Source of the DNA: a virus
IMG/VR virus record: IMGVR_UViG_3300009378_000050
Span: 1 to 26,570 of that record
DNA: 26,570 nt
Reading direction: 5' to 3' (one strand)
Shown here: positions 3,057-25,454 of the stretch, piece by piece
How positions within the stretch are numbered: position 1 is the stretch's first letter
How the letters are laid out: every line of letters starts with the position of its first letter
The notes under the pieces: generated by a model
What the model was told of the DNA's origin: nothing
Databases searched by the model: none
Seen by the model: only the letters and a program-made list of their open reading frames with translations
Program-made: the position numbers and the translations under genes

Positions 3057-5018
3057 CTACTTAGCGAAGTAGTATGATGTACCAAGTGCTTCAATTAACT
3101 CTGTAACTGGCACATTCATTATCTTAGTCATCTTACGTATGTTTCTACCATGTAAGTCTAAGAACTGTTTCATAGGTATTACTTTAGCATTTGGGTTAGT
3201 TACCTCAGACTGCATACCCTCAAAGAACATACCAAGTATATCAGTACCAAGAGGCATATCCTCTGTCTTGATGTTAGTACGTGACCCAAACAAGTCCATG
3301 TATGCATTCTTGATAGCTTGCTCTAGTAAGTGCATTTCAGTTACATTAACTCGGAAACAGTCATGTACTGCTATGATATGCTGAGCACCTAATCGTTTTA
3401 AGTGTACAATTATCAATCTAGCTATTAATGCATCTGTAGCTTGTATCATATTCACAAATGAGTTACGTATGAAGTTCTTAGTATTAACCTCTAGCGTGTT
3501 TAGTGCTAGCTTGATGAACTTGTAAGTATACTCACTAGTAGTAACAATTACATCAGGACACACTACATCATGCTCTATAGCTTGGTCTAGTATGTTATGT
3601 TGTACTTTATAGTTCATTTGCACACGAGAACCATCAGGCATCATATGACCTGTACGAGTCTCTATGTTGGCATCATTGTACTCTGCTATGCGTTGACGTA
3701 ATGCACACATCTTCTTACCAAATGACTTAGTTACAGCCTTATGAAATCTCTTAGCTACATCATCAGATACTATACCTTCTGGATAGAGTACAGCTACAAC
3801 CTCAAACTGTTCATCTTTTATTAACTGCTTAACATCAGTAAATGCAGCCCAGCCTTGTCCATAGAACACTCCCATGAATGACTTCTTAATACCTCCACGA
3901 GTGAAGCCTACAAAGCCAGCTTTCTCTAACTCTGTAATACAACGTTGATATGCATCTTCTAGCTTAGTTAGTGTCATACCACAAGCAGCAGCTATATCTT
4001 CATCACCTACCATCAGAGCACCTAACTGAGGCCCTGAACACTTAGCATCCAACCCAACAGCCATACCTATGTACGGACGATTACCTTTCTGTAATTCACT
4101 CCATATCATAGCTGCCTTAGTGAATGACCAAGGCTTGCTAGCTAGTCTATCTTTCTTATCTTTACCTAACTCTTCTATTATGAAGTCTACAGGATTAGCT
4201 ATTGCTTTAGACATTAGTTTGCCTACCTTGTTCTCTGGTATGCTTACCATGTCCATGACTTCTGCTTTTATAACTCTCTTAACTGTAGGAATGTCATACT
4301 CAGTAGTAACACCTGCTAAGTCCATAAGTGCACGACTTCTATCACTAGCTTGACCATTTGGCCCATGACAAGCAGCTTGATATGTACGAATACGTCTATC
4401 TGCTTTGAACTCACTAGTATATGCATTCTCTGCACTCATAGCATTACAACCAGCTAGTACATACGCTTCATCATCTGCCTCAGCGCCTCCCATAATAGTT
4501 TGTACTCTATTAGCTATGTCTACCATAACCTGACTTATTGTGAACTGACTAGCCTCTTGAGCATGTATAGCTTCTATAGCTAACTTACCCATTTGTCCTT
4601 TCTCTATACCATAGTTAGGGAAGCGTCTAGTGAATTCATCACCAACCTTAGTAGGTGCATAAGCCTCAGTACGTTGCTCCATAATCTGTATCATGCGGTC
4701 GCCTATAGTGCCATCTTCCTTAGCAAGCTGTGCTTCCATTAGGGCAAGATGTACATGCTCTTCTGGTATAGTTGTTTTATGCTCTACTACATCTATTGAG
4801 CCATTACCAGATACAGACGTTTGTAACTTAGCACTAGCTAGTGAGTGCTTTACTAAGTCTACGAAAGCCTCTGGCATGTCTAAGTCACCGACTAGCTTAG
4901 TAGCATCCACTACAGCACAGGCCAGTAGTACTGATACTCTAGCATTACCTATTTGATGGAATAGGTGAGCAGCAACAGTTGATGATAGGGCATTAGTGTT
5001 CATTTGTGTAGTATCCAT
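3057..5018 (-). CDS. Single-subunit (T7-like) DNA-dependent RNA polymerase, compact form
   Basis: The chosen ATG at 5018 has AGGAG six bases upstream and gives 653 residues. In-frame ATGs at 5078 (AGAGGAA site) and 5135 (weak site) would add up to 39 Asn/Thr-rich residues. Numbering from 5018, the polymerase landmarks are present: DRRIRTYQAACHGPNGQ (from 207), matching the T7 DWRGRVY...NPQGN block; motif A GLDAKCSGPQLGALM (D324); motif B FTRGGIKKSFMGVFYGQGW (R374, K378/K379, Y386, G387); and motif C HDCFRV (H552, D553). The C-terminus ends SYYFAK, near the conserved FAFA-type end of T7. T7 RNA polymerase has 883 residues. Here the part before the DRR block is about 200 residues shorter, so the promoter-recognition and melting region is reduced. 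The enzyme would transcribe phage genes from its own promoters. Confidence 0.9.
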   Translation of the reverse strand: MDTTQMNTNALSSTVAAHLFHQIGNARVSVLLACAVVDATKLVGDLDMPEAFVDLVKHSLASAKLQTSVSGNGSIDVVEHKTTIPEEHVHLALMEAQLAKEDGTIGDRMIQIMEQRTEAYAPTKVGDEFTRRFPNYGIEKGQMGKLAIEAIHAQEASQFTISQVMVDIANRVQTIMGGAEADDEAYVLAGCNAMSAENAYTSEFKADRRIRTYQAACHGPNGQASDRSRALMDLAGVTTEYDIPTVKRVIKAEVMDMVSIPENKVGKLMSKAIANPVDFIIEELGKDKKDRLASKPWSFTKAAMIWSELQKGNRPYIGMAVGLDAKCSGPQLGALMVGDEDIAAACGMTLTKLEDAYQRCITELEKAGFVGFTRGGIKKSFMGVFYGQGWAAFTDVKQLIKDEQFEVVAVLYPEGIVSDDVAKRFHKAVTKSFGKKMCALRQRIAEYNDANIETRTGHMMPDGSRVQMNYKVQHNILDQAIEHDVVCPDVIVTTSEYTYKFIKLALNTLEVNTKNFIRNSFVNMIQATDALIARLIIVHLKRLGAQHIIAVHDCFRVNVTEMHLLEQAIKNAYMDLFGSRTNIKTEDMPLGTDILGMFFEGMQSEVTNPNAKVIPMKQFLDLHGRNIRKMTKIMNVPVTELIEALGTSYYFAK

Positions 5019-5115
5019 GGTATTCTCCTGAGTATTGTTAGTAGTTGAGTTAGTTGTGTTGTTAGTTAAGTTAGTCATCGTAAGTTCCTCTTTAGTTAAT
5101 GTAAGTTGGTTGTTG

Positions 5116-5274
5116 TTATTCATTGTCAAGTTCATTACAAACTTCTTTCAAGTGTTGAACGTATTGCTTATCTTGTGCACTATTGCCATTCTTCTTAAAG
5201 TTATTGAACAAGCAAGAGTTAATGAATGCTGCTTCTCTTTGTGAACACTTTACGCCATTTATTAGTTGTATCAT
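5116..5274 (-). CDS. Hypothetical 52-residue protein upstream of the RNA polymerase
   Basis: The ATG at 5274 follows AAGGAGAATAAC. The frame is also open further upstream, to an ATG at 5424 (102 residues) with a GGGAG site. That longer version would overlap the 26-residue gene in another frame and starts with an odd hydrophobic-then-basic stretch, so the shorter start is preferred. The short product is Asn/Lys/Cys-containing and probably helical (CSQREAAFINSCLFNNF, then QDKQYVQHLKEVCNEL). No family was recognised. It sits directly before the polymerase gene and could regulate it or the host enzyme; this is inference. Confidence 0.5.
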   Translation of the reverse strand: MIQLINGVKCSQREAAFINSCLFNNFKKNGNSAQDKQYVQHLKEVCNELDNE

Positions 5275-6013: not shown

Positions 6014-7555
6014 TTAGTCAATCTTTTCTTCTACATACTTATTTAGATTGTCAATTTCTTCATAAGTAGTTTTGATAATCATATCTTGTTCAAGTACGGT
6101 AGTTTCTAACTCTTCTACACGTTCTCTTAGATTACCTAAATTATTTACAGTCTCTTCTAAAGATTCTATACGTCCCATAGCTTCCACTAAAGCACCTAAA
6201 GCTTTCATATAAAGTACAGAAGTTTTGACAGTTAAAGTTCCTTCGTTATCTTCCTGAACTAAACCGCCCATACCAGCTTCTTGTAAGTCTTGAGCCATTA
6301 CACCCAAATGTCTTACAGCATCTTCTCCATCTTTATCTACTTGCTTAGTGATTCTATAGTTATGCAACTGAACTTTCTTTATATCTTGCCATTGACTTTT
6401 AGCAGTAGATATATCTTGTTTTATTCTTCTATCTGAAATAGTGCCATAAGAGTTGTTAGCATTCTGTACATCACCATTTGAATGTACTCTGAAAGAAACG
6501 TCAGTTCCACCATCATCAATACCTACAAAATTGTAACGATTATTTCTAACTTGTACACTAATACCATCAGCTAAACTGGTATTATTTATAATTCTTGTAG
6601 CATAACTACCACTTGAAGACGAAGTAAATACATATAAAGGCTTATAACTAGTGACATCAACTTGGTCTACTTTTAACGCCCCATTACCATTAACTGATAT
6701 ACCTATACTATCTTGGGAAGGTGCATAAAATCCTGAGTTAGCGTCACTATAAAATGTGATGGCTGGAGCAGCTTCACTACCAGTAAGAAAATTTAAGGTA
6801 TTGTTTGCAGTTATCTCTGAGTCACTTATAGTTAGTCGGTTATTCCCTCCTGTTGATATACCAAGTACATCTGGTGAAACTTGATAAAAGCCAGTATTTA
6901 CATCACCGAAAGTAATAGTAGGAAAAGCTGCATTACCTGCTGCCATATTTAACTTATCACAACTTATGACATAGGCATCAATAGTTCCACTACTTGTCAT
7001 ATTCTTTGTAGTAATATTTTCTACTGCTGCTAAAGTATCTGCCTCTATATTGCCTGTAGCTGTTACTGTAATACACCCTACATCACCATTAACACTAATG
7101 CCAGTAGATAAAGTCTCTAGTTTTGAAGCACTGTTATGTAATAATCTAATACCTTGAGTAGAGTTTATATCTATACTACCCACAGTACTGTCTATCTTCA
7201 TAGCACTTCCAGTATGAAACACACTAGAATCATTACCAGTCCCAAAGAAAGCCTTTATGTTATCGTTATATCTAGTGCCAGCAGTACGAATGTCTAACTC
7301 ATTATTCCTTGTAGCATTTAGCTTATACTCAGAATTAGCTAAAGCATAAGGAGTGATAAACTTAGTAGCACTTACTCCTTCATTTACTTCTATTTCACTA
7401 GCTGAACCATACGTATACGGAGCAACTACTTGCCAAAACCCATCTGCACCTGAACCGCCGCTAGTGTCTTTCCAAGTATATCTAACTCCTTGGAAGTCAT
7501 AAGTTTGACCATTTAAAGGTGAGCTTGGAAAATCTATTGGACTATCTACACTCAT
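6014..7555 (-). CDS. Tail fibre / spike with C-terminal peptidase S74 intramolecular chaperone
   Basis: A 513-residue protein with an AGGAG ribosome binding site. The N-terminus (SPIDFPSSPLNGQTYDFQGV, then RYTWKD) is a short phage fibre unit. The middle is beta-rich and has two copies of a common fibre motif: 'PTITFGDVNTGFYQVSPDVLGIS' around 212-234 and 'PAITFYSDANSGFYAPSQDSIGIS' around 264-287. Residues 371-465 are a peptidase S74 domain: GTISDRRIKQDI with candidate catalytic S374 and K379, then 'HLGVMAQDLQEAG' and 'VKTSVLYMKALGALVEAM'. It ends in a coiled coil (460-510). S74 domains trimerise the fibre and cut themselves off by a Ser-Lys mechanism, so the mature fibre probably ends near residue 373. 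It is the last gene of the late operon and is followed by a terminator. Confidence 0.85.
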   Translation of the reverse strand: MSVDSPIDFPSSPLNGQTYDFQGVRYTWKDTSGGSGADGFWQVVAPYTYGSASEIEVNEGVSATKFITPYALANSEYKLNATRNNELDIRTAGTRYNDNIKAFFGTGNDSSVFHTGSAMKIDSTVGSIDINSTQGIRLLHNSASKLETLSTGISVNGDVGCITVTATGNIEADTLAAVENITTKNMTSSGTIDAYVISCDKLNMAAGNAAFPTITFGDVNTGFYQVSPDVLGISTGGNNRLTISDSEITANNTLNFLTGSEAAPAITFYSDANSGFYAPSQDSIGISVNGNGALKVDQVDVTSYKPLYVFTSSSSGSYATRIINNTSLADGISVQVRNNRYNFVGIDDGGTDVSFRVHSNGDVQNANNSYGTISDRRIKQDISTAKSQWQDIKKVQLHNYRITKQVDKDGEDAVRHLGVMAQDLQEAGMGGLVQEDNEGTLTVKTSVLYMKALGALVEAMGRIESLEETVNNLGNLRERVEELETTVLEQDMIIKTTYEEIDNLNKYVEEKID

Positions 7556-7570
7556 TATTATCTCCTGTTA

Positions 7571-9658
7571 TTAAGAAGTTCCTTTAGCCCAAACTAAAGT
7601 ACCACCCATGTTTAATTCTACTTGTTGAAGTGTACCATTTGAATCTGCATACATAACATCAACTACATTTTGACCATTATATTGTAAATTATTAGTATCA
7701 TCTGTAGGGTTAACTACCCAAGAGGATGCAGTGCCCCAACTAGTTACAGAGTTCATATTATCAAAATCTGTAGCTATTCTTTCATTACTAAGAGGCTGTT
7801 TTGATAATCTTACATCAGATACAGAACCATCCCACAACTCTTGACCGTTTAACTGCCTCCCTCTACCTATAAATAGAAAGCCACTTGCAAAGTTATTTAA
7901 TGTGCCCGAAGTAGGACTTTGAGCTTTTAAATCTCCTTGATAGTATATGTATCTATTTCCAGAGTTATAAGTCATGACAGTATTCTTGTACTCACCTAAT
8001 TCTTGTACTTGACCTGACCTCAACCAAGAATCTTCGGTATCGTAAATACCCCAATCATCAGGGTCATTATCGGCCATAAGCCTAGCACTGTCACTTAGCG
8101 ATTGGTCATAGAGAGTTACTAACCCTTGTCCTAGTGAGTCAGTAGAAGTAGTATCTATCTTCCCCCAAGCTTGTACAGTGAAGTCACTAGTCATAGCTAA
8201 AGGTTGGCCTTGTTTGTCTACTAAACTGTAAGTAGTTACAAAGTTCTCTAAGTGACCTCCACAATCAAAACCACCAGCTATTGTTTGGCCTTCTACTTTT
8301 CTTTCAATAGGATGTACAACAGCTTTATCTACATTACCTGTTTCATCATCTTCACTGTAACAATCATGTGAAACTATCCAGTAGTCAGACCATACCTCAT
8401 TCCTTCCATATTGTTCATCGTTAGCAGGTTGACTACCTCCTTCATCTACAATATACACAGTAGAACCTGTAGAAGCAGAAGGCATTTTAATATACATCAA
8501 TACTTCTGGACTAGCTCCTGTATCACATTTAACTATTTGCAAAGGCAATCTAGTTGTTTTAGTGATATTTGTATATACTCTAATACCTTGGCCATTCCCA
8601 ATAGAGTTAGTAGAACCGTCTATTGCTTCTGGTGGGAAATCTGATTCTTTCATTTGTAATACAAAATCAGTTAACGTACCATTTATACTTGGCAAGGTAT
8701 AAGTAAATGATTTATTTTCTGGCTCAGGATAAGGTGGTGGTTCAATATTCTGACCAAAGTAAGGTAAGACCTCAACTACGCCCTGCATAGGTGAATTGTC
8801 TGCAAACCCTGCATAGTTAGTTACATTTCTAACATCCCAATATGTAAGATTTTGATATATAATGGCAGAGTTATAGAACATCCTAAACATATTTGTAGCA
8901 TTGCTTACATCCCACATACCTATATCTTGATTGAACTTATCACAATCAAAAAACATTGAATAGAAAATCTCTACATTACTTACATCCCATGCACTAAGAT
9001 CTTGGTTAAACTCTCTACAGCCTGTAAACATTTGCTGCATATTTGTTACATTACTAACATCCCAACTGGATAAATCCTGATTTAATGCCCTACAGTTTCC
9101 TAGTCCTTGGTACATGTCAGTTATGTTACTTACATCCCAATTCCCAATAGGCCGATTGAAAATGGAGCAATTATAAAGCATACTTCTTATACTAGTAAGA
9201 TTAGTATTAAAAACCCAGTTACTTATATCTGAATTAAATTTAAAACAGCTAAAGAACATACGTTCAAAATTCAATACATTACTAACATTCCAACTAGATA
9301 TATTTCCACTAAACCTAGAACAGCTTCTAAACATTCTATTCATGTCAGTTACATTGCTTACATCCCAGCTATTAAGGCTGCGAAAGTATTTAGAACATCC
9401 ATAAAACATTTCAGACATGTCAGTTACATTACTTACATCCCAGCTATCAAGATTTTGTTCAAATTTATTACATCCTTTAAACATACCCTTCATGTTAGTA
9501 GCAGAGCTTACATTCCAGCCACTAACATTTTGATTAAAATCAGAGTTGCTAGCAGCTTCACATAAATAGCTAAAATCTTCTATTTCCGACACATCTGCAT
9601 TAGTTACATCTTGGTTAGTATTTATTAGTGTTATCAGTTCTTCTCTAGTTAATGCCAT
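7571..9658 (-). CDS. Putative adhesin: BspA-like leucine-rich repeats, DUF2341-like and LamG-like domains
   Basis: A 695-residue protein with a GGAG ribosome binding site in the end of the previous gene. Residues 41-293 hold ten repeats of about 25 residues, consensus FNQDLSxWDVSNVTxMxxMF followed by xxCxx. This is the BspA-like surface repeat (DUF285 type) known from bacterial, protist and giant-virus surface proteins. A Pro-rich linker (EPPPYPEPEN) is followed by a DUF2341-like sandwich (about 317-460: GTLTDFVLQMKESDFPP, GIRVYTNITKTTRLPLQI, VLMYIKMPSASTGSTVYIV). A LamG/concanavalin-like domain follows (about 480-640: FTVQAWGKID, NTVMTYNSGNRYIYYQGDL, FLFIGRG, WDGSVSDVRLSKQPLSNERI). It is probably an exposed tail adhesin. 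Confidence is high for the repeats and LamG-like part and moderate for DUF2341. Confidence 0.75.
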   Translation of the reverse strand: MALTREELITLINTNQDVTNADVSEIEDFSYLCEAASNSDFNQNVSGWNVSSATNMKGMFKGCNKFEQNLDSWDVSNVTDMSEMFYGCSKYFRSLNSWDVSNVTDMNRMFRSCSRFSGNISSWNVSNVLNFERMFFSCFKFNSDISNWVFNTNLTSIRSMLYNCSIFNRPIGNWDVSNITDMYQGLGNCRALNQDLSSWDVSNVTNMQQMFTGCREFNQDLSAWDVSNVEIFYSMFFDCDKFNQDIGMWDVSNATNMFRMFYNSAIIYQNLTYWDVRNVTNYAGFADNSPMQGVVEVLPYFGQNIEPPPYPEPENKSFTYTLPSINGTLTDFVLQMKESDFPPEAIDGSTNSIGNGQGIRVYTNITKTTRLPLQIVKCDTGASPEVLMYIKMPSASTGSTVYIVDEGGSQPANDEQYGRNEVWSDYWIVSHDCYSEDDETGNVDKAVVHPIERKVEGQTIAGGFDCGGHLENFVTTYSLVDKQGQPLAMTSDFTVQAWGKIDTTSTDSLGQGLVTLYDQSLSDSARLMADNDPDDWGIYDTEDSWLRSGQVQELGEYKNTVMTYNSGNRYIYYQGDLKAQSPTSGTLNNFASGFLFIGRGRQLNGQELWDGSVSDVRLSKQPLSNERIATDFDNMNSVTSWGTASSWVVNPTDDTNNLQYNGQNVVDVMYADSNGTLQQVELNMGGTLVWAKGTS
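8780..9538 (-). repeat. Ten BspA-like (DUF285-type) leucine-rich repeats
   Basis: The stretch encodes ten units spaced about 25 residues apart, each centred on W-D-V-S-N-V/A-T. One unit (NWVFNTNLTS) is degenerate. At DNA level the plus-strand words 'ttacatccca' and 'ttacattact' recur in register, so the array is a natural target for recombination between units. Confidence 0.88.
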
Positions 9659-16332: not shown

Positions 16333-17097
16333 CTATTCTGGTTTACCTGTTGGAGATACTTTACCAACTGGAGCTGTAGGCGAACCTATATGAGTATGGT
16401 CTTTCAATGACTTACCACCACCTACACAATCAGTCATGCCTGTTACAGTGCCATTACAATCTACATCACCCGACACTGTTAAGCTGCCAGACATTTCAAC
16501 TAATGGAGTAGTCAAAGTTACTTTAGTACTAGCTACTACTTCTACATCTGGTGACGTTACTGTTACTTTAGTATTAGCTGTAACCGTAGCTGATTCACAT
16601 ACAATATTTACATCTTTGTTAGTTTCAATATTAATATCTCCACCAGCATCTAATGATATAAATTGTGTTCTATCTTCATTCCTAAGCTCTAGATTATCTG
16701 CGCTATACTCTTTTATAGTTCTTGTTAAAGGATTAAACCCTACGAAACAAAAGCCATCATCTTCACTAAACTTACGCTTTAAGTGAGGCTTAGGTATAGC
16801 AGCTAGTAGTCCAGCAGTATCATTATCTTTGTAGAACCAGTGGTCATATCCAACTTGACTGAAACATATCATACAAGTATCACCTACCTTTACAGGTGCA
16901 GTTAAAGACCATCCACCACCTTGAGGCATATGAACAGGTACTTCTTCTATTGGTTTTCTCTCTATAACTTGGTTAGTTTCTTCTGAATCTTGTGCACATC
17001 TTTCAGCGCATATTAAAACGCTTGCTGTACAAGTCTCAGGAAAGAACTCAACTATCCTAGCTGGAAACATTATAGAATACATTTCAGTATTAAACAT
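16333..17097 (-). CDS. Baseplate central spike protein (gp138/gpV-like)
   Basis: A 254-residue membrane-piercing spike. The N-terminal region (residues 8-100) is an OB-fold-like domain: FPARIVEFFPETCTASVLI, then a 'P-V-H-M-P-Q-G-G-G' turn and 'APVKVGDTCMICFSQVGYDHW'. It matches the Gp138 N-terminal family. Residues 135-225 are a repetitive beta-helix rich in Val/Thr (DINIETNKDVNIVCE, ATVTANTKVTVTSPDVEVV). The end carries the apex motif KDHTHIGSPTAPVG with H234 and H236, the H-x-H pair that binds iron at the needle tip in P2 gpV-like spikes. The gene starts on TAATG at the end of the Dit-like gene. The spike would attach below the hub and puncture the outer membrane, which suggests a Gram-negative host. 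Confidence 0.85.
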   Translation of the reverse strand: MFNTEMYSIMFPARIVEFFPETCTASVLICAERCAQDSEETNQVIERKPIEEVPVHMPQGGGWSLTAPVKVGDTCMICFSQVGYDHWFYKDNDTAGLLAAIPKPHLKRKFSEDDGFCFVGFNPLTRTIKEYSADNLELRNEDRTQFISLDAGGDINIETNKDVNIVCESATVTANTKVTVTSPDVEVVASTKVTLTTPLVEMSGSLTVSGDVDCNGTVTGMTDCVGGGKSLKDHTHIGSPTAPVGKVSPTGKPE

Positions 17098-18287
17098 TAG
17101 ATTAAGTCTCCTAAGAAAGTAGTATTATTAGTACCACTTGTTATTTTGGTTAATGTAGTAGGAGCTACTCTCCCTATAGCACCTGAGATAGTTTCATCCC
17201 CTATACTAGCTGCTTGTCTTACAGCGTCATCAACAGTTATTAAGTCATTATCATTGAAGTCATCTTCGTCCACTAAACTAGGGTCAACAGCACCAATGGC
17301 ACCAGCTACACAACAATCAACAGCAAGTCCTATAAGAAGTTCACCAAACTCACTACCACTAGTGAATCCAAAGTTATCCTCTATAGCACCATATATTGAC
17401 TCAGTTAACTCTCCCATAGCTGTGTTAATAGTATCTTCTACAAGGTCATTCACTAGACCTTCTAATCCATCTACTAAACAGGCAGAAGCAGTATTTGCTC
17501 CAGCAGCTATGTCCACCCCTTCTAGTAACTCATTAGCTTCTTCTATTAATACAGAAATCATACTTAGACTATTTGCATCTGAGGCTTCTACTAGCTCTGT
17601 ATCAGTAGTGTGAACAGTGTAGTTATGTTTGCCTGTAGCAGCATCAAAACTTCTGAATTCGTAAGTTACTTGTATAGGCTTGCCATTAGTAGCAAAAGTA
17701 TCTATTACAAAACTTTCACCTATGTTTACATTAGCTACAGATATTTCTTGATAGTCTTGCACTACTACACTATTAGCTAATAACTTATCTATTTCTGCCT
17801 GTCTCTCTTCTGGTGAGATAGGATTAAATATTAAAGGTATAGGTGTAGTGTTGTTAGTACTTTCACTAACCTGAATCTCTTCGCCCATAATAGTAAACAT
17901 CATTGCATCTGTCATGCCTTCTGCTTGCTTGGTCTTAAACCTATTAAATATAACAGGTGTGTAAACTCCCAAGTTAGTTACTACATCACAAGGTATGCTT
18001 TGTCTCATTAAAGTTCTTAAAACATCAAACATCCATCTAGCATTATTAGTACTGTATTGATGATTCTCCATAGATGTTTCTATAACTGTATTAGTTACAA
18101 TGCCAGATATAGTAATTTTTCTATTCTTCTTTATTGCTGTATTGCTTACCACAAACCCTGCTTGTGTAGGATACTTAGTTATCTCAGAGGTTGTTTCATG
18201 TTCTTCTGAGATAACTGAGTGAAACCTCAATACAGACTCTTGCCCATTTACTTTAAAAGTAATTTGAGCTTTATCAGGTTTAGCCAT
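17097..18287 (-). CDS. Dit-like baseplate protein
   Basis: A 396-residue protein with an AGGAAG ribosome binding site. The N-terminal 150 residues follow the Dit-like pattern of myovirus baseplates. That pattern is a strand pair, then 'E-H-E-T-T-S-E-I-T-K-Y-P-x-Q-A-G-F-V-V-S-N' and 'KKNRKITISGIVTNT', then a helix (NARWMFDVLRTLM) and 'PCDVVTNLGVYTPVIFNRF'. The family equivalent reads 'S-x-S-T-S-S-E-V-T-x-x-P-V-E-x-G-x-x-x-x-D' then 'I-x-l-x-G-x-v'. The C-terminal half has a long acidic/alanine-rich helical stretch with a hydrophobic patch (FGELLIGLAVDCCVAGAIG) that I cannot assign. The protein probably forms a ring linking the hub to the wedge. Its end overlaps the next start (TAATG). The role is inferred from pattern and gene order. 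Confidence 0.6.
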   Translation of the reverse strand: MAKPDKAQITFKVNGQESVLRFHSVISEEHETTSEITKYPTQAGFVVSNTAIKKNRKITISGIVTNTVIETSMENHQYSTNNARWMFDVLRTLMRQSIPCDVVTNLGVYTPVIFNRFKTKQAEGMTDAMMFTIMGEEIQVSESTNNTTPIPLIFNPISPEERQAEIDKLLANSVVVQDYQEISVANVNIGESFVIDTFATNGKPIQVTYEFRSFDAATGKHNYTVHTTDTELVEASDANSLSMISVLIEEANELLEGVDIAAGANTASACLVDGLEGLVNDLVEDTINTAMGELTESIYGAIEDNFGFTSGSEFGELLIGLAVDCCVAGAIGAVDPSLVDEDDFNDNDLITVDDAVRQAASIGDETISGAIGRVAPTTLTKITSGTNNTTFLGDLI

Positions 18288-18295
18288 AATTCTTC

Positions 18296-19252
18296 CTAAT
18301 TAAACCAAGTGTTAACAGGCATGTCAGTACCTTCTGTTGGATTCGAGCCAAATACATGCGTACTCCATTCCTTGCTATAGTTAGAGCCTTTATGCTGCAC
18401 TGATAGTACTTGGTATGTTGCTGCACCAGCCACCGAATCTGCTAATAACTTGCTAGCTATTTGTAGTGCTTCTTCATCTACACTAGTTCCAGCAGTAAGC
18501 AACTTAGTGATATTTACGATACTACTAGGTCTTATCTTTTCATCTAAGTTTGCATGTACTGATATAGTGGCAGGGCCAAGTTTAGGATTAGTCCTCATGT
18601 TCCTAGTATCTAATACTATTTGGTCAGGACTACTTCTAAGGTCAGTACCAGATACATTCTTTGCATCAGGCTTATATACTATTACTATATTATCACCTTC
18701 TGTGTAGAAATTAAATTGGTATTGACTAGCTAGTCTCTCAAGACAAGTTATTGCTGAGCCTGTATGTTTAGCACTATCTTTGTCAGGTACGTAATTTAAA
18801 ACCTCTTCTGGAAAAGTCTTATATATTATCTTACCTGAGAAGCCTACTTCATTAAGAATACTTTCTATAGACTTCTTAACAGTGGGTGATTTTACATATA
18901 TTTCTATAGGCTTTTGTAAGTACAATTTATAAAGCTTAGAATAGCAATACATAGAGAAAATAGTATCAGGTACTTTCTTCTCTTCTAATGCATTACTTAT
19001 ATATAACTGGTTAGCTATTACTGTAGGTTCTCTATCATGTAAGCCTGTACTTAATGTTACGTACTTCTCACCTGTAGATAAATTGCCTACAGTAGTTTCT
19101 AGTAAGTTGTACAGACTGAACTTAGCTCTAGTGAAGCCATTGATATGCCTAATGTCAAAATCAATGCGTAGGTCATCTGATTCAAATACTACCGCACCTT
19201 TCTTGTCAGTAACTTTAATATTTACGTACTGTCCAAATTTACTTAGTGCCAT
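18296..19252 (-). CDS. Baseplate hub / gpD-like tail protein
   Basis: A 318-residue protein that starts two bases after the tape-measure stop; its AGGAGG ribosome binding site lies inside the end of that gene. The N-terminal strand pattern (YVNIKVTDKKGAVVFESDDL, then FDIRHINGFTRAKFSLYNL) is typical of hub proteins related to P2 gpD and T4 gp27. These form a ring between the tube and the central spike. The middle holds a 'KKSIESILNEVGFSGKI' helix and a 'TCLERLASQYQFNFYTEGDN' segment, which recur in the gpD/gp27-like second domain. A 'A-I-x-L-E-x-L-A-x-x-Y-x-F-x-F' motif of this kind is common in late-control gpD homologues. The order hub, Dit-like protein, spike and gp25 agrees. Family naming is moderately sure and the baseplate role is likely. 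Confidence 0.65.
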   Translation of the reverse strand: MALSKFGQYVNIKVTDKKGAVVFESDDLRIDFDIRHINGFTRAKFSLYNLLETTVGNLSTGEKYVTLSTGLHDREPTVIANQLYISNALEEKKVPDTIFSMYCYSKLYKLYLQKPIEIYVKSPTVKKSIESILNEVGFSGKIIYKTFPEEVLNYVPDKDSAKHTGSAITCLERLASQYQFNFYTEGDNIVIVYKPDAKNVSGTDLRSSPDQIVLDTRNMRTNPKLGPATISVHANLDEKIRPSSIVNITKLLTAGTSVDEEALQIASKLLADSVAGAATYQVLSVQHKGSNYSKEWSTHVFGSNPTEGTDMPVNTWFN

Positions 19253-19253
19253 A

Positions 19254-22200
19254 TTATCCTCCTGTGCCTATACCTGTTTCTTCATCTATATTTAAGTCGC
19301 CATCTACATCTACTGCTGTTCTTACTAGTTCAGGATTAACCTCAACATTAACATCAACATTAGTAGTTTTACTTTCAGCAGTTTCTATACCAACAGCTTT
19401 CATATGACCTATATCAGTAGCGGGAACAGCATCTTTTGCTACGTCCTCTTCCCATATAGTTCCAGCTCTCCAATCTCCACTGAACATAGAATCTCTTGCA
19501 TCTTTCTTTGCTTGGTTAACTTCATTACGTTCAGTACCAAACATTGATGCACTAAATTCATCTACTGCATCCATAGCAAAGTCTCCGACAGTGTAAGCAA
19601 CAGCTAGTGGCCCAGCTACCTTACCACCTACGTTCTTGAGATTGCTCATAGCTTTACTAGCAAAGTTACTAGGCTTAGCTCCTTTCAGAGCTTCTGCTGT
19701 ACCTACTTTAGTCTTAGCAGAACTCATTATAGATTGAGCTTTCTTGCCAGCTAAGTAGCTTACTCCAGCACCGACAGCAGGTGCAGCTATTGATACAGCA
19801 GCAGTACCAGTACCGAAGTTTTCTTCACCTACTAAACTACTTGCACCCTCTACTACATCAGCTTTCAAGTCACGGAAGTCATGTACTAAATCTTTTATAG
19901 CAGAGTCAACTTTCCTCATTGAAGCTTCATCAACATCACCACGAGCAGTCGCTAGTGTTTCAGCAGTTGCATCTGAAACAGTAAGCTCAGGAACGTTTAA
20001 TATTCCAGCTACCTGCGCTCTGTCTCTAGGATTAAGACCTCTCATTATTTCTTGAGATTGAGCTATGTAACTTTGAGCGTCCATAGACTCTCGATTAGCA
20101 TACAAGCCAGTTACGTCTAAGCCTTTTACATTGTCTGAACTAGATGCAGCAATAGCTGTTTGTATTCTAGCTGTTTCTTTAGCTGCTGTTATTTCATTCT
20201 TGTAAATACTTACTTGACTGCCAGCCGACAATATAGTTGATGTAGCTCCTGACTTATCTAAGCCAGACTCCATTAAGGCGTCACTTAAACCCCTTGCTTG
20301 GTTAGCTTCAATACCTGCTTTAGCTCCTAACTGTACTGCATCCATTTCTTCGTTTACAGTAGCCATAGTTATCTTAGCTATCTTTTGTAAAGTACTTGTA
20401 GCTTTCTTTACATTTTCTGAGAAGTTCTGTAATGACTCAGAAGCTTCATTAAGTTCATCGTCATTGCCACCATTACTAGGCGGTGGCGGCTTCTTCCAAC
20501 CCTCTCTAGGAACATGGTTTAGAATCCTACCAGCACTACCTCTTTTACCTCCGCCACCTGAGAAGTAATCAGCTTTCGGGCTACCTGCCGCTGCTTCAAC
20601 TGCCTTCTTAGTTTCTTCTTTGTTCGAAGTCTTCTGGTCATTGTTGATTTCTCCATCAGGTTGGGCAGTACTTACTTCTTCTTCTTTATCTTTAGCATAG
20701 GTAGACTTAGTAGGTTTCTTACTATATTTTCTACCATCAGGACTAAATGCTTTCATAGGTTCTTGTACATCAACTTCTTCCTTGAAAGCTTCTTCCTGAC
20801 CTTTGCCTTGATTCTTCTTACGTGGCTTTCTTGCGCCCTTAACATCTTCTGCCAAAGCGTATACCCCTCTGTTGTCAAGACTAGCAGCAATCTCTTGAGC
20901 CTCTTCACCAGCAGCTAAAATCTCAGCTTGCATATCAGAGTCTTCTTCTACTAGTTCGTAGAAAGATTCACCAGTGTATTTATTAAGAGCATAGAAGTGA
21001 GTTTGTTTCTCTCCTGTCTCCATCATTTGCATTTGCATTTGCACCATAGTATCAGCAAGTGCAGTTTTCATGCCTTTAGTATTAAAGTTCTTAATCTCTA
21101 ACAATCCAGCACTTTTGCCAGTAGTTTTATCAAACAACCTACCATCTGGTGAAGCACCAAAACCTTTATGTTTAGATTCAAAGAAGGCTTCTTCAAAACT
21201 TAAATTTTTACCTTCTCCAGCTAAGAAGCTTTCAACAGCTTTATCTTCTGACTCATTACCCTCACGAGTAAAAGCATTACCTTTAAAAGCATCGGCAGTG
21301 CCTAGCCTTTCTTTAGCTAGCTCAACTGCCATGCGCTCTGAGCCTCTGCCCATTGTTAAAGTCTTAGCTATAGAGCCAGTAATATTACCTTTACGTTGAG
21401 CAAGCCATTCAGGTGAACCCTGTTTAGGCATTGGGTTTTGTAATACTCGTAACTGGTAAGCTTCTTGGTCAGTTAACTCACGAGACTCCGATAGCTTTAA
21501 TAATGAATCTAACTTGCTAGCTTTCTGACTTTCTTCTGTCTCACTTTCAAGATAACCTTCAACAAATATTTGAGATTCTGATAACTCTTTCTCTCCATAT
21601 AACCCACCTTGTTGAGAACCTTTACCATGTCTTTCTATTTGTTCATTAGACATAGGTATAGCTTCTGGTCTATCTAAACTTAGGTCAAGCAAGAAAGCCT
21701 CATTACGAGCATTATCTAAGTTACGTTGTTCTTCTTGGTTAGCATCAAAGCCACGTGACCGTCCTCTACCTTCTGTTTCATCCCTTAATGTTGGCATCTG
21801 CTCCCTAAGAACTCTGGCAGCAAACTCAGCTTTCTCTTGATACAAATCCATCTTGCGTGTTTGTTCAGCCTTAGCATTAGCAAACCATTTAGCATTTTCA
21901 GGTGTACCATATCCATAAGGAGATTTACCAATAGGAAATAAAGAATTACGTAAGCTTGGCTTTTCATCCCAATACTCTTTAGACCTTTCATCTACAGGTA
22001 GCTTTTCATTAGCTAAAGCTACTTCACTAAAGCCAAACTGTAGCCTATCTAAAGCTGTGTTTCCCTTACCAGCCATTGTAGGTTTTATACCAGTTATGCC
22101 AGTTTCATTAGGCAAAGGTAATAATGCTTTACTATGTGCGCTCATGGTACTATCCATGAACCTTTTAGTAATAGCTTCTTCTAACCCTAACTGTCTTACA

Positions 22201-22862
22201 CCCTGTATAGTAGACCCTATAGTTTCTTCGTGTACATAGACAGAGGCTATATCTTTTACATGAGTCATAGCTAGCTTTAACTCTTCATCAGCCTTCATTT
22301 GCTTTTCTTGGCTTAACGTGTGACCAGCTAATTGACTACCTGCACCTTTGTCTAAATACTCCCCAGCGGTCTTACCTAACATACTTAAAGCTATAGATAC
22401 GTCAGTCTTTGAATTAGGAAATGGTATACCTCTTGGGAAGTCTTCACCTTTCATTTCTCTGGCAAAGTCTTTACCTTTCATACCAGTGACATCTTCAAAC
22501 TCTTCTACTACTGCCGCTATCTGTAAAGGGTCTACTCCAGAAGGAACAAACTCTCCACTTAGCAATCCACGTATACCAGCTTGTACATTAGGAGATACAC
22601 GAGACATACGACTTAGCTGCAAATCTCTTGCAGTCATCATGCCTTCTTGTTCTTGATTGACTCTACCTACTACTTCTTCTCTCAAGTCTCGGTAGGCATT
22701 CTCCATATTAGTTAATGTGCCATACTCTTCTAGTAATGAGTCTTCTGGTGAAAGTCCTTCATGTTCTTCTGAACCAATGATGGTTAAGCCAGATAATTCT
22801 TCATTTTCACTATCTCCATAGATGTCACCATCTAGGTCATCACCTAAGTAGTTACTAGACAT
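19254..22862 (-). CDS. Tape-measure-position protein with internal YqaJ-type nuclease domain
   Basis: A 1202-residue, mostly helical protein in the tape-measure slot, between the frameshifting chaperone pair and the baseplate hub. The ATG at 22862 has an AGGAG site five bases upstream. The C-terminal part, from residue 800, looks like a tape measure: long helices (LNEASESLQNFSENVKKAT) and Ala/Gly-rich hydrophobic segments near 1020-1040 and 1080-1100 that could enter a membrane. Residues 480-645 match the YqaJ/lambda exonuclease fold: GSPEWLAQRKGNITGS (482-497), REGNESEDKAV (533-543), GASPDGRL with D573, LLEIKNF with E589 and K591, and a glutamine-rich helix with Q608, Q610 and Q612 followed by TG. 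These are the expected PD-(D/E)xK catalytic positions, so the domain looks intact. Charged Lys/Glu linkers flank it (about 430-475 and 655-800, with KKPPPPSNGG). The tape-measure role is inferred from position. A DNase role during ejection or against competing DNA is inference. Confidence 0.75.
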   Translation of the reverse strand: MSSNYLGDDLDGDIYGDSENEELSGLTIIGSEEHEGLSPEDSLLEEYGTLTNMENAYRDLREEVVGRVNQEQEGMMTARDLQLSRMSRVSPNVQAGIRGLLSGEFVPSGVDPLQIAAVVEEFEDVTGMKGKDFAREMKGEDFPRGIPFPNSKTDVSIALSMLGKTAGEYLDKGAGSQLAGHTLSQEKQMKADEELKLAMTHVKDIASVYVHEETIGSTIQGVRQLGLEEAITKRFMDSTMSAHSKALLPLPNETGITGIKPTMAGKGNTALDRLQFGFSEVALANEKLPVDERSKEYWDEKPSLRNSLFPIGKSPYGYGTPENAKWFANAKAEQTRKMDLYQEKAEFAARVLREQMPTLRDETEGRGRSRGFDANQEEQRNLDNARNEAFLLDLSLDRPEAIPMSNEQIERHGKGSQQGGLYGEKELSESQIFVEGYLESETEESQKASKLDSLLKLSESRELTDQEAYQLRVLQNPMPKQGSPEWLAQRKGNITGSIAKTLTMGRGSERMAVELAKERLGTADAFKGNAFTREGNESEDKAVESFLAGEGKNLSFEEAFFESKHKGFGASPDGRLFDKTTGKSAGLLEIKNFNTKGMKTALADTMVQMQMQMMETGEKQTHFYALNKYTGESFYELVEEDSDMQAEILAAGEEAQEIAASLDNRGVYALAEDVKGARKPRKKNQGKGQEEAFKEEVDVQEPMKAFSPDGRKYSKKPTKSTYAKDKEEEVSTAQPDGEINNDQKTSNKEETKKAVEAAAGSPKADYFSGGGGKRGSAGRILNHVPREGWKKPPPPSNGGNDDELNEASESLQNFSENVKKATSTLQKIAKITMATVNEEMDAVQLGAKAGIEANQARGLSDALMESGLDKSGATSTILSAGSQVSIYKNEITAAKETARIQTAIAASSSDNVKGLDVTGLYANRESMDAQSYIAQSQEIMRGLNPRDRAQVAGILNVPELTVSDATAETLATARGDVDEASMRKVDSAIKDLVHDFRDLKADVVEGASSLVGEENFGTGTAAVSIAAPAVGAGVSYLAGKKAQSIMSSAKTKVGTAEALKGAKPSNFASKAMSNLKNVGGKVAGPLAVAYTVGDFAMDAVDEFSASMFGTERNEVNQAKKDARDSMFSGDWRAGTIWEEDVAKDAVPATDIGHMKAVGIETAESKTTNVDVNVEVNPELVRTAVDVDGDLNIDEETGIGTGG

Positions 22863-22873
22863 AATGTCTCCTA

Positions 22874-23074
22874 TTAATTCATATGTTGTTTAATTTCAAT
22901 TATCTGGTGCATCATTTCTAAATCATAAATAGTATAAGTTCCATCCTTTAGTTCTTTTAAAGAACACATAGGCGGATTTACTAACAAAGGTCTAATAAAA
23001 TACCCATTAAGTTCAGGGTATATTGAACTGTAATCAACGGGTAAAGTATTAGTCTCCCCACTGGCTATTTGTCG
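22874..23074 (-). CDS. -1 frameshift extension of the tail assembly chaperone (gpGT-like)
   Basis: This 66-codon stretch is open in the -1 frame relative to the chaperone, from codon CGA at 23074 to the TAA at 22874. It has no ribosome binding site of its own near the front and occupies almost the whole gap before the tape-measure gene. The 0-frame reads CAC TCC CCC GAC AAA TAG. A ribosome slipping back one base on the C-run would continue as CGA CAA ATA and make a fusion of about 189 residues. The extension is acidic to neutral and has coding character (PVDYSSIYPELNGYFIRPL, then LKDGTYTIYDLEMM). The arrangement matches the programmed frameshift that makes tail chaperone pairs in many long-tailed phages. 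Shift efficiency cannot be read from sequence. Confidence 0.72.
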   Translation of the reverse strand, partial: RQIASGETNTLPVDYSSIYPELNGYFIRPLLVNPPMCSLKELKDGTYTIYDLEMMHQIIEIKQHMN

Positions 23075-23080
23075 GGGGAG
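23054..23080 (-). promoter_or_regulatory. Slippery C-run with overlapping hairpin (programmed -1 frameshift site)
   Basis: On the minus strand CTCCCC (23080-23075) can pair with GGGGAG (23059-23054) across a 15-base loop that holds the 0-frame TAG. The slippery run TCCCCCG lets the proline tRNA re-pair perfectly on CCC after moving back one base. The hairpin includes the slip site rather than lying downstream of it, which is unusual, so its part in stimulation is uncertain. Confidence 0.55.
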
Positions 23081-23442
23081 TGTTCCTTTGCTAAGCCTAA
23101 GTCGAAAAAAGATGAATATTGAGAATGTATTACATGAGTGAATAACTCTGCAACTACACCTAAGTTTTCTTCAAACATTTCATCAATTGTCTCTTGAGTA
23201 ATCTTTTGATTATCTATACGAACTTGACAGATAAAGTGCTTAACTAGATTAGCTGCTTGTTTAGGGTCAGATGAACCCATAATAGCCACTACAGTAGAAG
23301 CTATATTTAATTCCGCTATGTTAATAATATTTTCTGTGCCTAGATACTTACCTGCTAAAGTTAAGTTTTCTAAGGCTACGCCTACACTCCATGAAGGTAT
23401 ATAAATTTCTCTACCATCTTTTATTGTAGCTGTATATGACAT
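23065..23442 (-). CDS. Tail assembly chaperone (short, unshifted form)
   Basis: A 125-residue protein between the tube and tape-measure genes, with an AGGAG ribosome binding site 5-6 bases before its ATG. This is the position of gpG in lambda and of its counterparts in P2, Mu and other tailed phages. The protein is mostly helical in its C-terminal half (KQAANLVKHFICQV, QETIDEMFEENLGVVAELFTHVI). The N-terminal 'Y-x-A-x-I-K-D-G-R-E-I-Y-I-P-x-W' strand block fits small chaperones that coat the tape-measure protein before tube assembly. It ends at a TAG shortly after a run of five C bases, where a -1 shift would give a longer form. No specific family was recognised with certainty; the role follows from position and the frameshift layout. 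Confidence 0.7.
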   Translation of the reverse strand: MSYTATIKDGREIYIPSWSVGVALENLTLAGKYLGTENIINIAELNIASTVVAIMGSSDPKQAANLVKHFICQVRIDNQKITQETIDEMFEENLGVVAELFTHVIHSQYSSFFDLGLAKEHSPDK

Positions 23443-23503: not shown

Positions 23504-23998
23504 TTAGATTGATTCACCAATCTCTAGGTTGTCATTACCGAATGCACGATTCATAGCAACCTTTTCAAAAGTAAGTACCCAAGTTACGGTATTCATGGTT
23601 TGACCACGAGACATAGCTGGCATAGCTAAGATTACGCCATTAGTTAGTGTAGCTTCATCTTTACCCATGTTATCTTTCAACTTGGCTTGGATAGGCTTAA
23701 CTAAGGCACCATCTGCTTCTGCTAAAGACTGGAAGTAGTTTGCATAATCTTGCAAATATTTGTTCTCTTCCGAATTCATGAGTACTGGAAATGTTAAATC
23801 CCCAGCTACTATACGTTGCATACTTACAACCATATCACCATAAGCACCGAACTGAGTCGTTGCAATGGGTGCTCTACGCATAATGTTAATTAAGTTTTCA
23901 CCAGTAGAGAAACCACGTACTGATAATTTCTTAACAGAGCCAGAGGCAGAAGGAATCTCTAAGATTAAATCTACATTAGCAAAACTATATTGATACAT
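23504..23998 (-). CDS. Tail tube protein (DUF3277-like)
   Basis: A 164-residue protein with an AAGGAAT ribosome binding site. Its pattern fits DUF3277-type tail tube subunits: an N-terminal strand (YQYSFANVDLILEIP), an 'FSTGENLINIMRRAP' strand-turn, then 'FGAYGDMVVSMQRIVAGDLTFPVLMNSEENKYLQ'. The family typically shows 'G-x-x-G-x-x-x-x-S/R-x-x-x-x-x-G-x-I-T-x-x-L-x-x-S-x-x-N-x-x-L' in this place. The end is the usual tube C-terminus with 'W-x-L-x-F-E-K'. The protein would form stacked hexameric rings inside the sheath, through which DNA leaves the capsid. It sits directly after the sheath gene, the canonical order. A terminator hairpin follows its stop codon. Confidence 0.78.
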   Translation of the reverse strand: MYQYSFANVDLILEIPSASGSVKKLSVRGFSTGENLINIMRRAPIATTQFGAYGDMVVSMQRIVAGDLTFPVLMNSEENKYLQDYANYFQSLAEADGALVKPIQAKLKDNMGKDEATLTNGVILAMPAMSRGQTMNTVTWVLTFEKVAMNRAFGNDNLEIGESI

Positions 23999-24008
23999 TT
24001 ATTATTCC

Positions 24009-25454
24009 TTATTCTGAGAATGAGCCGCTTACAATTACTTCATGTAAAGCACCAGCGCCTACCATGTCAAAAGTCATACCTGAATAGATACGATTACCTT
24101 TGTCGCCAGCAGGTACTTGGTCAATTGTAGGAGCATTAATACGGAAACCACGAGGTAAGAAAGTGCCATCAGGTAAGAAACCTGCACTTGCTAGACCGTT
24201 AGTAACTGCTGCTTGTAAAGCTCTGTCTAATGCAGCTTCTACAATATTGATACCTGTTTGGTTGAAAGGAATCTTATCAGGTGACAAATACAATGTATTA
24301 AATAAGTCAGTTTCACAACGATTCTCTAACCATAATACACCGTGAGTAGTGTCTAACCATGTGCCAGAAGACATACGAGAATCTGTAAAAGCATTTACAC
24401 TCTTACCAATCTTCACTACAGCATTAGCAAACTTACTACGTAAGTGGCCTAACTCACTAGGGGTTAAATCTTCTGCGGTAACACCAGCTAACTGTTTAAG
24501 GTTAAGAGTCATTGTAGTGTTGAAACCATTAAAGTTAACACTTGCGACACGTCCAAATGCAGCAGCACTAGGGTACTCATTCGGTGAGTTAGAGAAAGTA
24601 GTCATTACAAAGTTTGAAGTAATTGCTTTCAATTTAGCTGCTACGTTATTTTCACTGCTAGTCAGTGTAGTAATATCATTAGTAGTATTACAAAAGATTT
24701 TCTTAAAGCCTGTAGCTGCCTGTGCAATTTCTACAACAGTAGAACCTGCTTTATCATCACGCATAGACTTGTCAGTTACAAGACCTACAAAGTCAATACC
24801 TTTATCGACTGCTGCTGCTAATGATTCTGTTGGAGTTTCTATATCCACACCTACAGAAGACCTTGCCTTACTTTGGTCTAGACCTAAGACTTCGGCTACA
24901 TCACCTGTTGCAAATGATACACTACTAGTTGCACCAGTGGTAACACTCTTGATTACAAACACACCGTTTTCATAAGTACAAGTACTGCCAGTACTGGCGC
25001 TATCTACTAGAGCATTTATAGTACTAGCTACATCGTCTAGAGTAGAAGCAGAAGATAAGTCAACTTCTACTGCACTTACTGTGCCACCATCTAGAGTTAC
25101 ATTAAACTCCATGTTAGGTGCAACGATTATTTCTTCTAAAGGTAAATGTAATCCACCTTTTAAGACAGCTTGTTGTGCAGTATCATAAGACATGATAGCT
25201 ACAAAATCTGTAGGTGTAGGTGTTTGACCATAGAAAGCTTGAGCAGCTTTAAAGACTTCTGAATTTGCATTCCAGTCTTCTGATACAGTCTTTAAGCTAG
25301 TATAAGCTCTAGCTCGTTCTGTCGGTGATATAGGATTAATAGCATCATCAGAGCTAAGTCCTAAGAAACCTAAGATGCCAAAATTACCACCAGAGACACC
25401 CACTGGCGATACTGAGATAGATACATCAGCAAATTCAGTTATTTCAATTGCCAT
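24009..25454 (-). CDS. Contractile tail sheath protein (DUF3383-like)
   Basis: A 481-residue protein whose ATG follows a GAGGAAT ribosome binding site. The N-terminus (ITEFADVSISVSPVGVSGGN, then FGILGFLG) and the 'RARAYTSLKTVSEDW...VFKAAQAFYGQTPTP' block match the DUF3383 family, which contains sheath subunits of contractile-tail phages. The C-terminal third has a sheath-like Pro/Asn-rich segment (FLPDGTFLPRGFRINAPTID) and ends with strands that would join neighbouring subunits. The sheath polymerises around the tail tube and contracts to drive it through the host envelope. It is followed at once by the tube gene, and both precede an intrinsic terminator. That layout fits the high copy number of these two proteins. 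Confidence 0.82.
   Translation of the reverse strand: MAIEITEFADVSISVSPVGVSGGNFGILGFLGLSSDDAINPISPTERARAYTSLKTVSEDWNANSEVFKAAQAFYGQTPTPTDFVAIMSYDTAQQAVLKGGLHLPLEEIIVAPNMEFNVTLDGGTVSAVEVDLSSASTLDDVASTINALVDSASTGSTCTYENGVFVIKSVTTGATSSVSFATGDVAEVLGLDQSKARSSVGVDIETPTESLAAAVDKGIDFVGLVTDKSMRDDKAGSTVVEIAQAATGFKKIFCNTTNDITTLTSSENNVAAKLKAITSNFVMTTFSNSPNEYPSAAAFGRVASVNFNGFNTTMTLNLKQLAGVTAEDLTPSELGHLRSKFANAVVKIGKSVNAFTDSRMSSGTWLDTTHGVLWLENRCETDLFNTLYLSPDKIPFNQTGINIVEAALDRALQAAVTNGLASAGFLPDGTFLPRGFRINAPTIDQVPAGDKGNRIYSGMTFDMVGAGALHEVIVSGSFSE

Follow-up and report, generated by a model that had tools for sequence, protein, structure and literature searches.

Background

Tape measure proteins normally leave the phage tail at infection, and the enzymes known thus far to reside within them breach the cell wall. 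Exonucleases of the lambda-exonuclease type require a free duplex DNA end on which to act, and long 3' single strands are poor substrates for RecBCD. During injection by phage lambda, the tape measure protein is found at the inner-membrane entry site and is the sole phage protein to be robustly labelled there (PMC13190303). The Chaseviridae, the family of concern here, have linear genomes with terminal repeats of about 3 kb (PMC12842549). In sampled records the gene at the tape measure position is labelled 'tail fiber', 'exonuclease', 'endonuclease' or 'tape measure protein', without these roles being connected to one another. In GenBank, for example, ZPAH14 gp34 is labelled 'exonuclease, yqaJ', and PHROG 149 is named exonuclease; hence annotators had already seen the domain. 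Searches confined to the open-access literature turned up no account of a tape measure with a nuclease domain.

Here one such gene is analysed within a 26,570-nucleotide stretch of viral DNA (termed the window, and meaning the whole of that stretch). An initial annotation, made from the letters alone, reported a YqaJ-like nuclease core within a protein at the tape measure position and proposed that the virion carries a nuclease into the cell. That observation turns out to be right, and stronger than was claimed; its interpretation is partly supported.

Results

Genomic context

The window combines a single-subunit RNA polymerase with a myovirus tail module in the gene order of the Chaseviridae (Table 1). 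Because of this polymerase and of a sheath sharing 44% identity with that of VPs20, the window is classified, on gene content, as part of the genome of a Chaseviridae-like myovirus. The family is defined by genomes of 52-56 kb with terminal repeats of about 3 kb, to be set beside a 26.6-kb fragment in the case of the window and 56.5 kb in that of the related contig L133.

Table 1. Features of the window, with residue numbers referring to the 1202-aa tape-measure-position protein
Feature	Position	Strand	Basis
Tape-measure-position protein with embedded exonuclease domain	19254..22862	(-)	1202-aa ORF; between chaperone and hub; relatives annotated tape measure protein
N-terminal tape measure segment, residues 1-479 (25-36% identical to the rest of its clade)	21426..22862	(-)	
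YqaJ/lambda-exonuclease domain, residues 480-645 (Pfam match 485-617 = 21012-21410)	20928..21425	(-)	Profiles and predicted fold
R490 codon, W-x3-R motif	21393..21395	(-)	Invariant
E539 codon, second acidic motif G-x3-E	21246..21248	(-)	Invariant
D573 codon, predicted metal-binding catalytic Asp	21144..21146	(-)	Invariant in 79 sequences; in all tape-measure forms
E589-I-K591 codons, predicted catalytic ExK	21090..21098	(-)	E589 and K591 invariant in 79 sequences
C-terminal segment, residues 691-1202, hydrophobic stretches at 1021 and 1082	19257..20792	(-)	
Tail assembly chaperone (TAC), short product	23065..23442	(-)	PF21822 1.6e-8
Chaperone -1 frameshift extension, from slippery TTTTTTC	22874..23110	(-)	Conserved in L004, L045
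Baseplate hub protein	18296..19252	(-)	phrog_196 1.2e-22
Dit-like / tail tube initiator-type protein	17097..18287	(-)	PF21821 5e-20
Tail tube-position protein (KPP10 ORF10 family)	23504..23998	(-)	PF11681 1.2e-7; phrog_280 1e-22
Tail sheath	24009..25454	(-)	phrog_205 8e-94; 44% identity to Vibrio phage VPs20
Single-subunit RNA polymerase (Chaseviridae hallmark)	3057..5135	(-)	phrog_414 1.4e-26

The nuclease-bearing gene belongs to the late structural operon, where it lies directly after a frameshifting chaperone and before the hub and Dit genes, as is characteristic of a tape measure. The slippery heptamer (T TTT TTC at 23104-23110) is in frame near the end of the chaperone, and a -1 slip upon it opens a 78-aa extension that stops just ahead of the tape-measure-position gene; both the heptamer and the extension are kept in two relatives, L004 and L045. 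The position between a frameshifting chaperone and a hub, on which the initial annotation had relied, is thus borne out by the slippery sequence, by the -1 extension and by the phrog_196 match of the hub. That some other gene might be the real tape measure is unsupported, inasmuch as the ORF list of the window contains no second long ORF in the chaperone-hub interval. Two hydrophobic segments, at residues 1021 and 1082, follow the nuclease within the 1202-aa protein, as had also been noted.

Elsewhere in the window, a tail-fibre-region protein (7571-9658) couples a DUF285 repeat match (4.7e-81) to a C-terminal laminin-G-like lectin domain, a combination that is unusual for a phage adhesin; a tail fibre protein (6014-7555) ends in a C-terminal Peptidase_S74 self-cleaving chaperone domain; and a weak GNAT acetyltransferase match (824-1237) falls under the Pfam cut-off.

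The exonuclease domain

The YqaJ-like core that the initial annotation had assigned to residues 480-645 is confirmed by three kinds of comparison: the Pfam YqaJ profile (PF09588) matches residues 485-617 over profile positions 1-148 of 150 (E=3.1e-12; 47.5 bits versus a cut-off of 22); a PHROG RecE-like exonuclease matches the domain at 6e-18; and plain phmmer finds LHK-Exo (PDB 3syy) by sequence at 4e-5. A profile search of the 26.6-kb record found no second YqaJ domain. Every motif named beforehand is present at its proposed residues, namely GSPEWLAQRKG (482-492), G535-x-E-x-E539, SPDG with D573, E589-I-K591, Q608/Q610/Q612 and TG (616-617). When the domain is aligned with 78 viral-contig relatives (n=79, eight of which, including the window's, are tape-measure forms and the others standalone exonucleases), nine columns are fully invariant: W486, R490, G535, E539, P572, D573, E589, K591 and Q608. 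By sequence correspondence, these nine are the predicted lambda-exonuclease active-site set.

An AlphaFold2 model of the domain, obtained with the 79-sequence alignment as input, has a pLDDT of 85.2 and a pTM of 0.81. (A single-sequence model, with a pLDDT of 40, was discarded.) The top structural matches to this model, as found by Foldseek and VIA-align, are LHK-Exo and lambda exonuclease (E 9e-11 to 1e-7), with a Z score of 20.2 over 180 residues for LHK-Exo (3syy) and of 19.4-19.9 over 180-190 residues for lambda exonuclease. The domain is thus predicted to adopt the lambda-exonuclease fold, and alignment to the solved enzymes suggests that D573, E589 and K591 cluster into one site.

Occurrence across Chaseviridae and relatives

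The domain was found in all Chaseviridae checked: it is present in the tape-measure-position genes of phiEcoM-GJ1, ST32, 4HA13, Y2, PP101, Myduc, Faunus, ZPAH14, VPs20 and Shewanella phage SppYZU05. Those records of Chaseviridae and close relatives that have a YqaJ match have one per genome, and always in the tape-measure-position ORF. Hence what had been implied to be a one-off protein is instead a family-wide arrangement, for which some GenBank entries already say 'exonuclease'. For two viral contigs (G008 and G009) the profile search gave no match and tblastn nevertheless finds the domain, which reveals a limit of the YqaJ profile search. Among viral contigs there is a clean split by size: the tape-measure forms lie in ORFs 786-1290 aa long, the standalone exonucleases in ORFs of about 210-440 aa; D...ExK is retained in each tape-measure form examined. 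Standalone relatives adjoin Erf in recombination modules. Other phage matches of the domain were also considered as tape measures and rejected, since the non-Chaseviridae ones that were checked are either standalone exonucleases or located in recombination modules.

The clade to which the window belongs includes L004, L133, L134/L135/L136, L045/L137 and L138. Within Cleopatravirinae (L009, L031, L032, L033, L125, L127), the tape measure harbors both the YqaJ exonuclease and a C-terminal SLT (lysozyme/transglycosylase) domain; with the SLT domain in the same molecule, this protein is in any case a vehicle for enzymes. In GenBank, the tape measure genes of phiA050 (L128) and Spp001 (L129) are annotated incompletely or as two pieces, and the nuclease part of phiA050 is unannotated.

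Constraint upon the nuclease and divergence of its flanks

Conservation is concentrated in the nuclease. Among full-length members of the window clade, identity is 39-57% in the nuclease, 21-36% in the N-terminal part and 15-24% in the C-terminal part, and the invariant columns per residue amount to 0.211 in the nuclease versus 0.010-0.085 elsewhere in the protein. The density of invariant residues in Cleopatravirinae is 0.35 for the nuclease, 0.33 for SLT, 0.21 for the N-terminal part and 0.17 for the C-terminal part. Compared with L004, the window protein has a dN/dS of 0.13 across the domain, as against 0.53 for its final 200 residues. Profile comparison found no confident match in other clades for the N- and C-terminal flanks of the window clade, the nuclease of which retains all active-site residues; likewise, BLASTP of the entire window protein against VPs20 and ZPAH14 gave no match. 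Profile comparison does link the C-terminal flanks of the two Chaseviridae subfamilies to one another (1e-13). In a phylogenetic tree, the window clade groups with the tape-measure nucleases of Nefertitivirinae (support 91/83); a single clade for all three tape-measure nuclease groups is not rejected (p-AU 0.435), and a multiple origin is likewise compatible.

The tape measure genes of GJ1, ST32 and MLP1 (L015, L125 and L126, respectively) are mosaic. GJ1 and ST32 share 90-100% identity over residues 1-180 and mostly 83-98% after residue 720, and 37-72% in between; within this divergent middle, GJ1 and MLP1 share 88-100% up to residue 660, so that the swapped block includes the nuclease. This exchange of residues ~181-690 among the three phages is the sole hint of rapid selection there. 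Between the window and L004, 25% of the fourfold-degenerate sites differ in the nuclease region (20793-21425), a smaller share than over the remainder of the gene (one comparison, Fisher p = 0.04); this could be due either to block exchange or to synonymous constraint.

Synthesis of the nuclease

The sole candidate start near the domain, an internal ATG at residue 478, has no Shine-Dalgarno sequence, with which nearly all real genes of the window are provided; hence the nuclease is in all likelihood not produced apart from the tail protein. The tape measure of L138 (1395-5031) reads as two ORFs, of 431 and 768 aa. A natural separation of the nuclease was considered for this contig and rejected, given that homology spans the break and that the second ORF has no Shine-Dalgarno sequence; a frameshift in the contig seems the likelier cause.

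Virion carriage and tail length

The 4HA13 tape measure protein was detected by LC-MS/MS in CsCl-purified virions (PMC9699118), which answers, for a homologue, the question raised by the initial annotation of whether the protein is present in virions. A profile search finds both YqaJ and SLT domains in the corresponding 1204-aa gene. The homologue is distant, and its identification is at the level of the tape measure protein, which may be cleaved; by homology, virion carriage of the window nuclease is probable.

The uncontracted tail of 4HA13, with a tape measure of 1204 aa, measures 116.5 nm; the tail of ST32, with one of 1241 aa, measures 132 nm. Tape measures span about 0.15 nm per residue, at which rate a 116.5 nm tail needs about 777 aa; for comparison, the shorter tape measures of Felix O1 and KPP10 have 742 and 778 aa. 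Both the 4HA13 and the ST32 proteins are therefore longer than their tails need, as would be expected if folded domains do not count, and the 4HA13 surplus of about 430 aa is consistent with a folded, non-measuring cargo. The tail lumen is roughly 4 nm, within which a folded 19-kDa domain must either fit or unfold.

Discussion

Delivery and role at genome entry

The explanation that is slightly favoured overall is that the window encodes a virion-borne, active, end-dependent dsDNA exonuclease that would be delivered with the genome as part of the tape measure. An intact nuclease of the lambda-exonuclease (PD-(D/E)xK) type would sit between the N- and C-terminal rod segments of the tape measure; being made only within that protein, it would be assembled into the tail and, upon sheath contraction, would exit together with the tape measure. 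In the infected cell it would then digest dsDNA from free ends at the point where the genome enters, its most likely substrate being the linear ends of the incoming genome itself. Resection of 5' strands across the terminal repeats would leave 3' single strands, which RecBCD-type enzymes could not load upon and which, being complementary between the two repeats, could anneal. That the nuclease should travel in the virion, and not merely be expressed, is easiest to understand if it has to act immediately. The first duplex end to appear at the entry site belongs to the linear genome of the phage itself, and end processing is therefore favoured. It is accordingly suggested, tentatively and as one possibility, that an active 5'-3' exonuclease is injected family-wide to process the phage's own genome ends, either denying RecBCD-type nucleases a loadable end, or preparing the 3-kb repeats for annealing, or both. 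Such a virion-delivered step of end processing or counter-defence may, just as tentatively, be regarded as new. Counted against this explanation are the narrowness of the tail lumen and the distance of the 4HA13 homologue; a further point is that Chaseviridae have another gene for a 5'-3' exonuclease (GJ1 gp40). Moreover, neither RecT nor Erf annealing proteins were found in Chaseviridae records (the Erf model did match the control phage phiAC-1), which weakens the recombination half of the end-processing proposal.

Alternative explanations

The ejected nuclease might instead serve as a weapon or exclusion factor that, once in a freshly infected cell, destroys the DNA of the host, of plasmids or of rival phages, as the initial annotation also envisaged. 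Virion carriage, as judged by homology to 4HA13, would suit this role, and the swapping of the nuclease-containing central block among the close coliphages GJ1, ST32 and MLP1 is what host- or rival-driven selection would be expected to produce. It is somewhat unlikely, however: lambda-exonuclease-type enzymes need a free duplex end, which intact circular chromosomes and plasmids do not have; few copies enter per virion; and no immunity or self-protection gene was noticed beside the nuclease gene. Of the earlier proposal, the fold, the intact catalytic set, the gene position and, by homology, carriage in the virion are supported, whereas the requirement for an end speaks against host or plasmid DNA as the target.

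It is unlikely that the domain does its work during tape measure synthesis, serving late replication, recombination or the processing of concatemers in the producing cell, and is then simply trapped in the tail. Such dual use is suggested by its being the sole YqaJ/lambda-exonuclease-type enzyme of the genome and by the location of its standalone relatives beside Erf in recombination modules, but the gene lies in a late structural operon, has no internal start with a Shine-Dalgarno sequence, and comes from phages in which a RecT/Erf partner was not found (Chaseviridae records) and which possess another 5'-3' exonuclease.

A non-catalytic structural or DNA-binding module, such as a clamp on the leading genome end, is very improbable. 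The lambda-exonuclease fold does bind duplex ends (PDB entries) and, according to PMC11661146, the tape measure of another phage reaches towards DNA in the neck; against this, lineages with little else in common have every catalytic residue, K591 included, unchanged. An artefact (a chimeric contig or chance motif match) can be dismissed, for even though the window is a metagenomic fragment, the same ORF occurs in contigs L002 and L003, is 73% identical in L004, and has the same architecture in many complete cultured phages.

Implications and comparison with known systems

As predicted from sequence, the arrangement is that of a tape measure whose enzymatic cargo is of a novel kind and is shared by the members of an established phage family. 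With a conserved DNA exonuclease in the tape measure, tailed phages would be sending enzymes that process nucleic acids down the tail as the genome enters. The fate of the incoming linear genome ends, as well as their escape from RecBCD-type attack, can thereby be probed through a single active-site change in a coliphage that grows in culture. More immediately, annotation is corrected: the four labels used in the sampled records refer to one gene.

The window domain shares with the YqaJ / lambda exonuclease / LHK-Exo family (PF09588) a full-length profile match, the fold and the catalytic residues; however, known phage members of that family are standalone proteins of about 200-300 aa in replication or recombination modules, whereas this domain lies inside a tail protein. 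With the tape measures of Chaseviridae (4HA13_0067, PP101_67, GJ1 gp62, Y2 gp76, ZPAH14 gp34 and VPs20 gp24; PHROG 149, 19855) the window protein has in common its gene position, a size of 1.2-1.29 kaa, a single embedded YqaJ domain with D...ExK, and the order sheath-tube-TAC-TMP-hub, but beyond the nuclease no confident sequence match joins the window clade to them and, unlike the tape measures of Cleopatravirinae, the window protein lacks a C-terminal SLT domain. The T6SS effector Tde1 (PMC10240207) likewise is a DNase delivered by a contractile device, with an N-terminal part that is similar to tape measure proteins and contains glycine zippers (the window protein's zipper being only marginal); it is, however, an Ntox15 DNase toxin without a tape measure function. 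Finally, tape measures with peptidoglycan hydrolase motifs, such as that of mycobacteriophage TM4 (cited in a passage of PMC13277306), also place an enzyme within the tape measure for delivery at infection: theirs is a cell-wall enzyme, whereas the one described here is a predicted DNA exonuclease.
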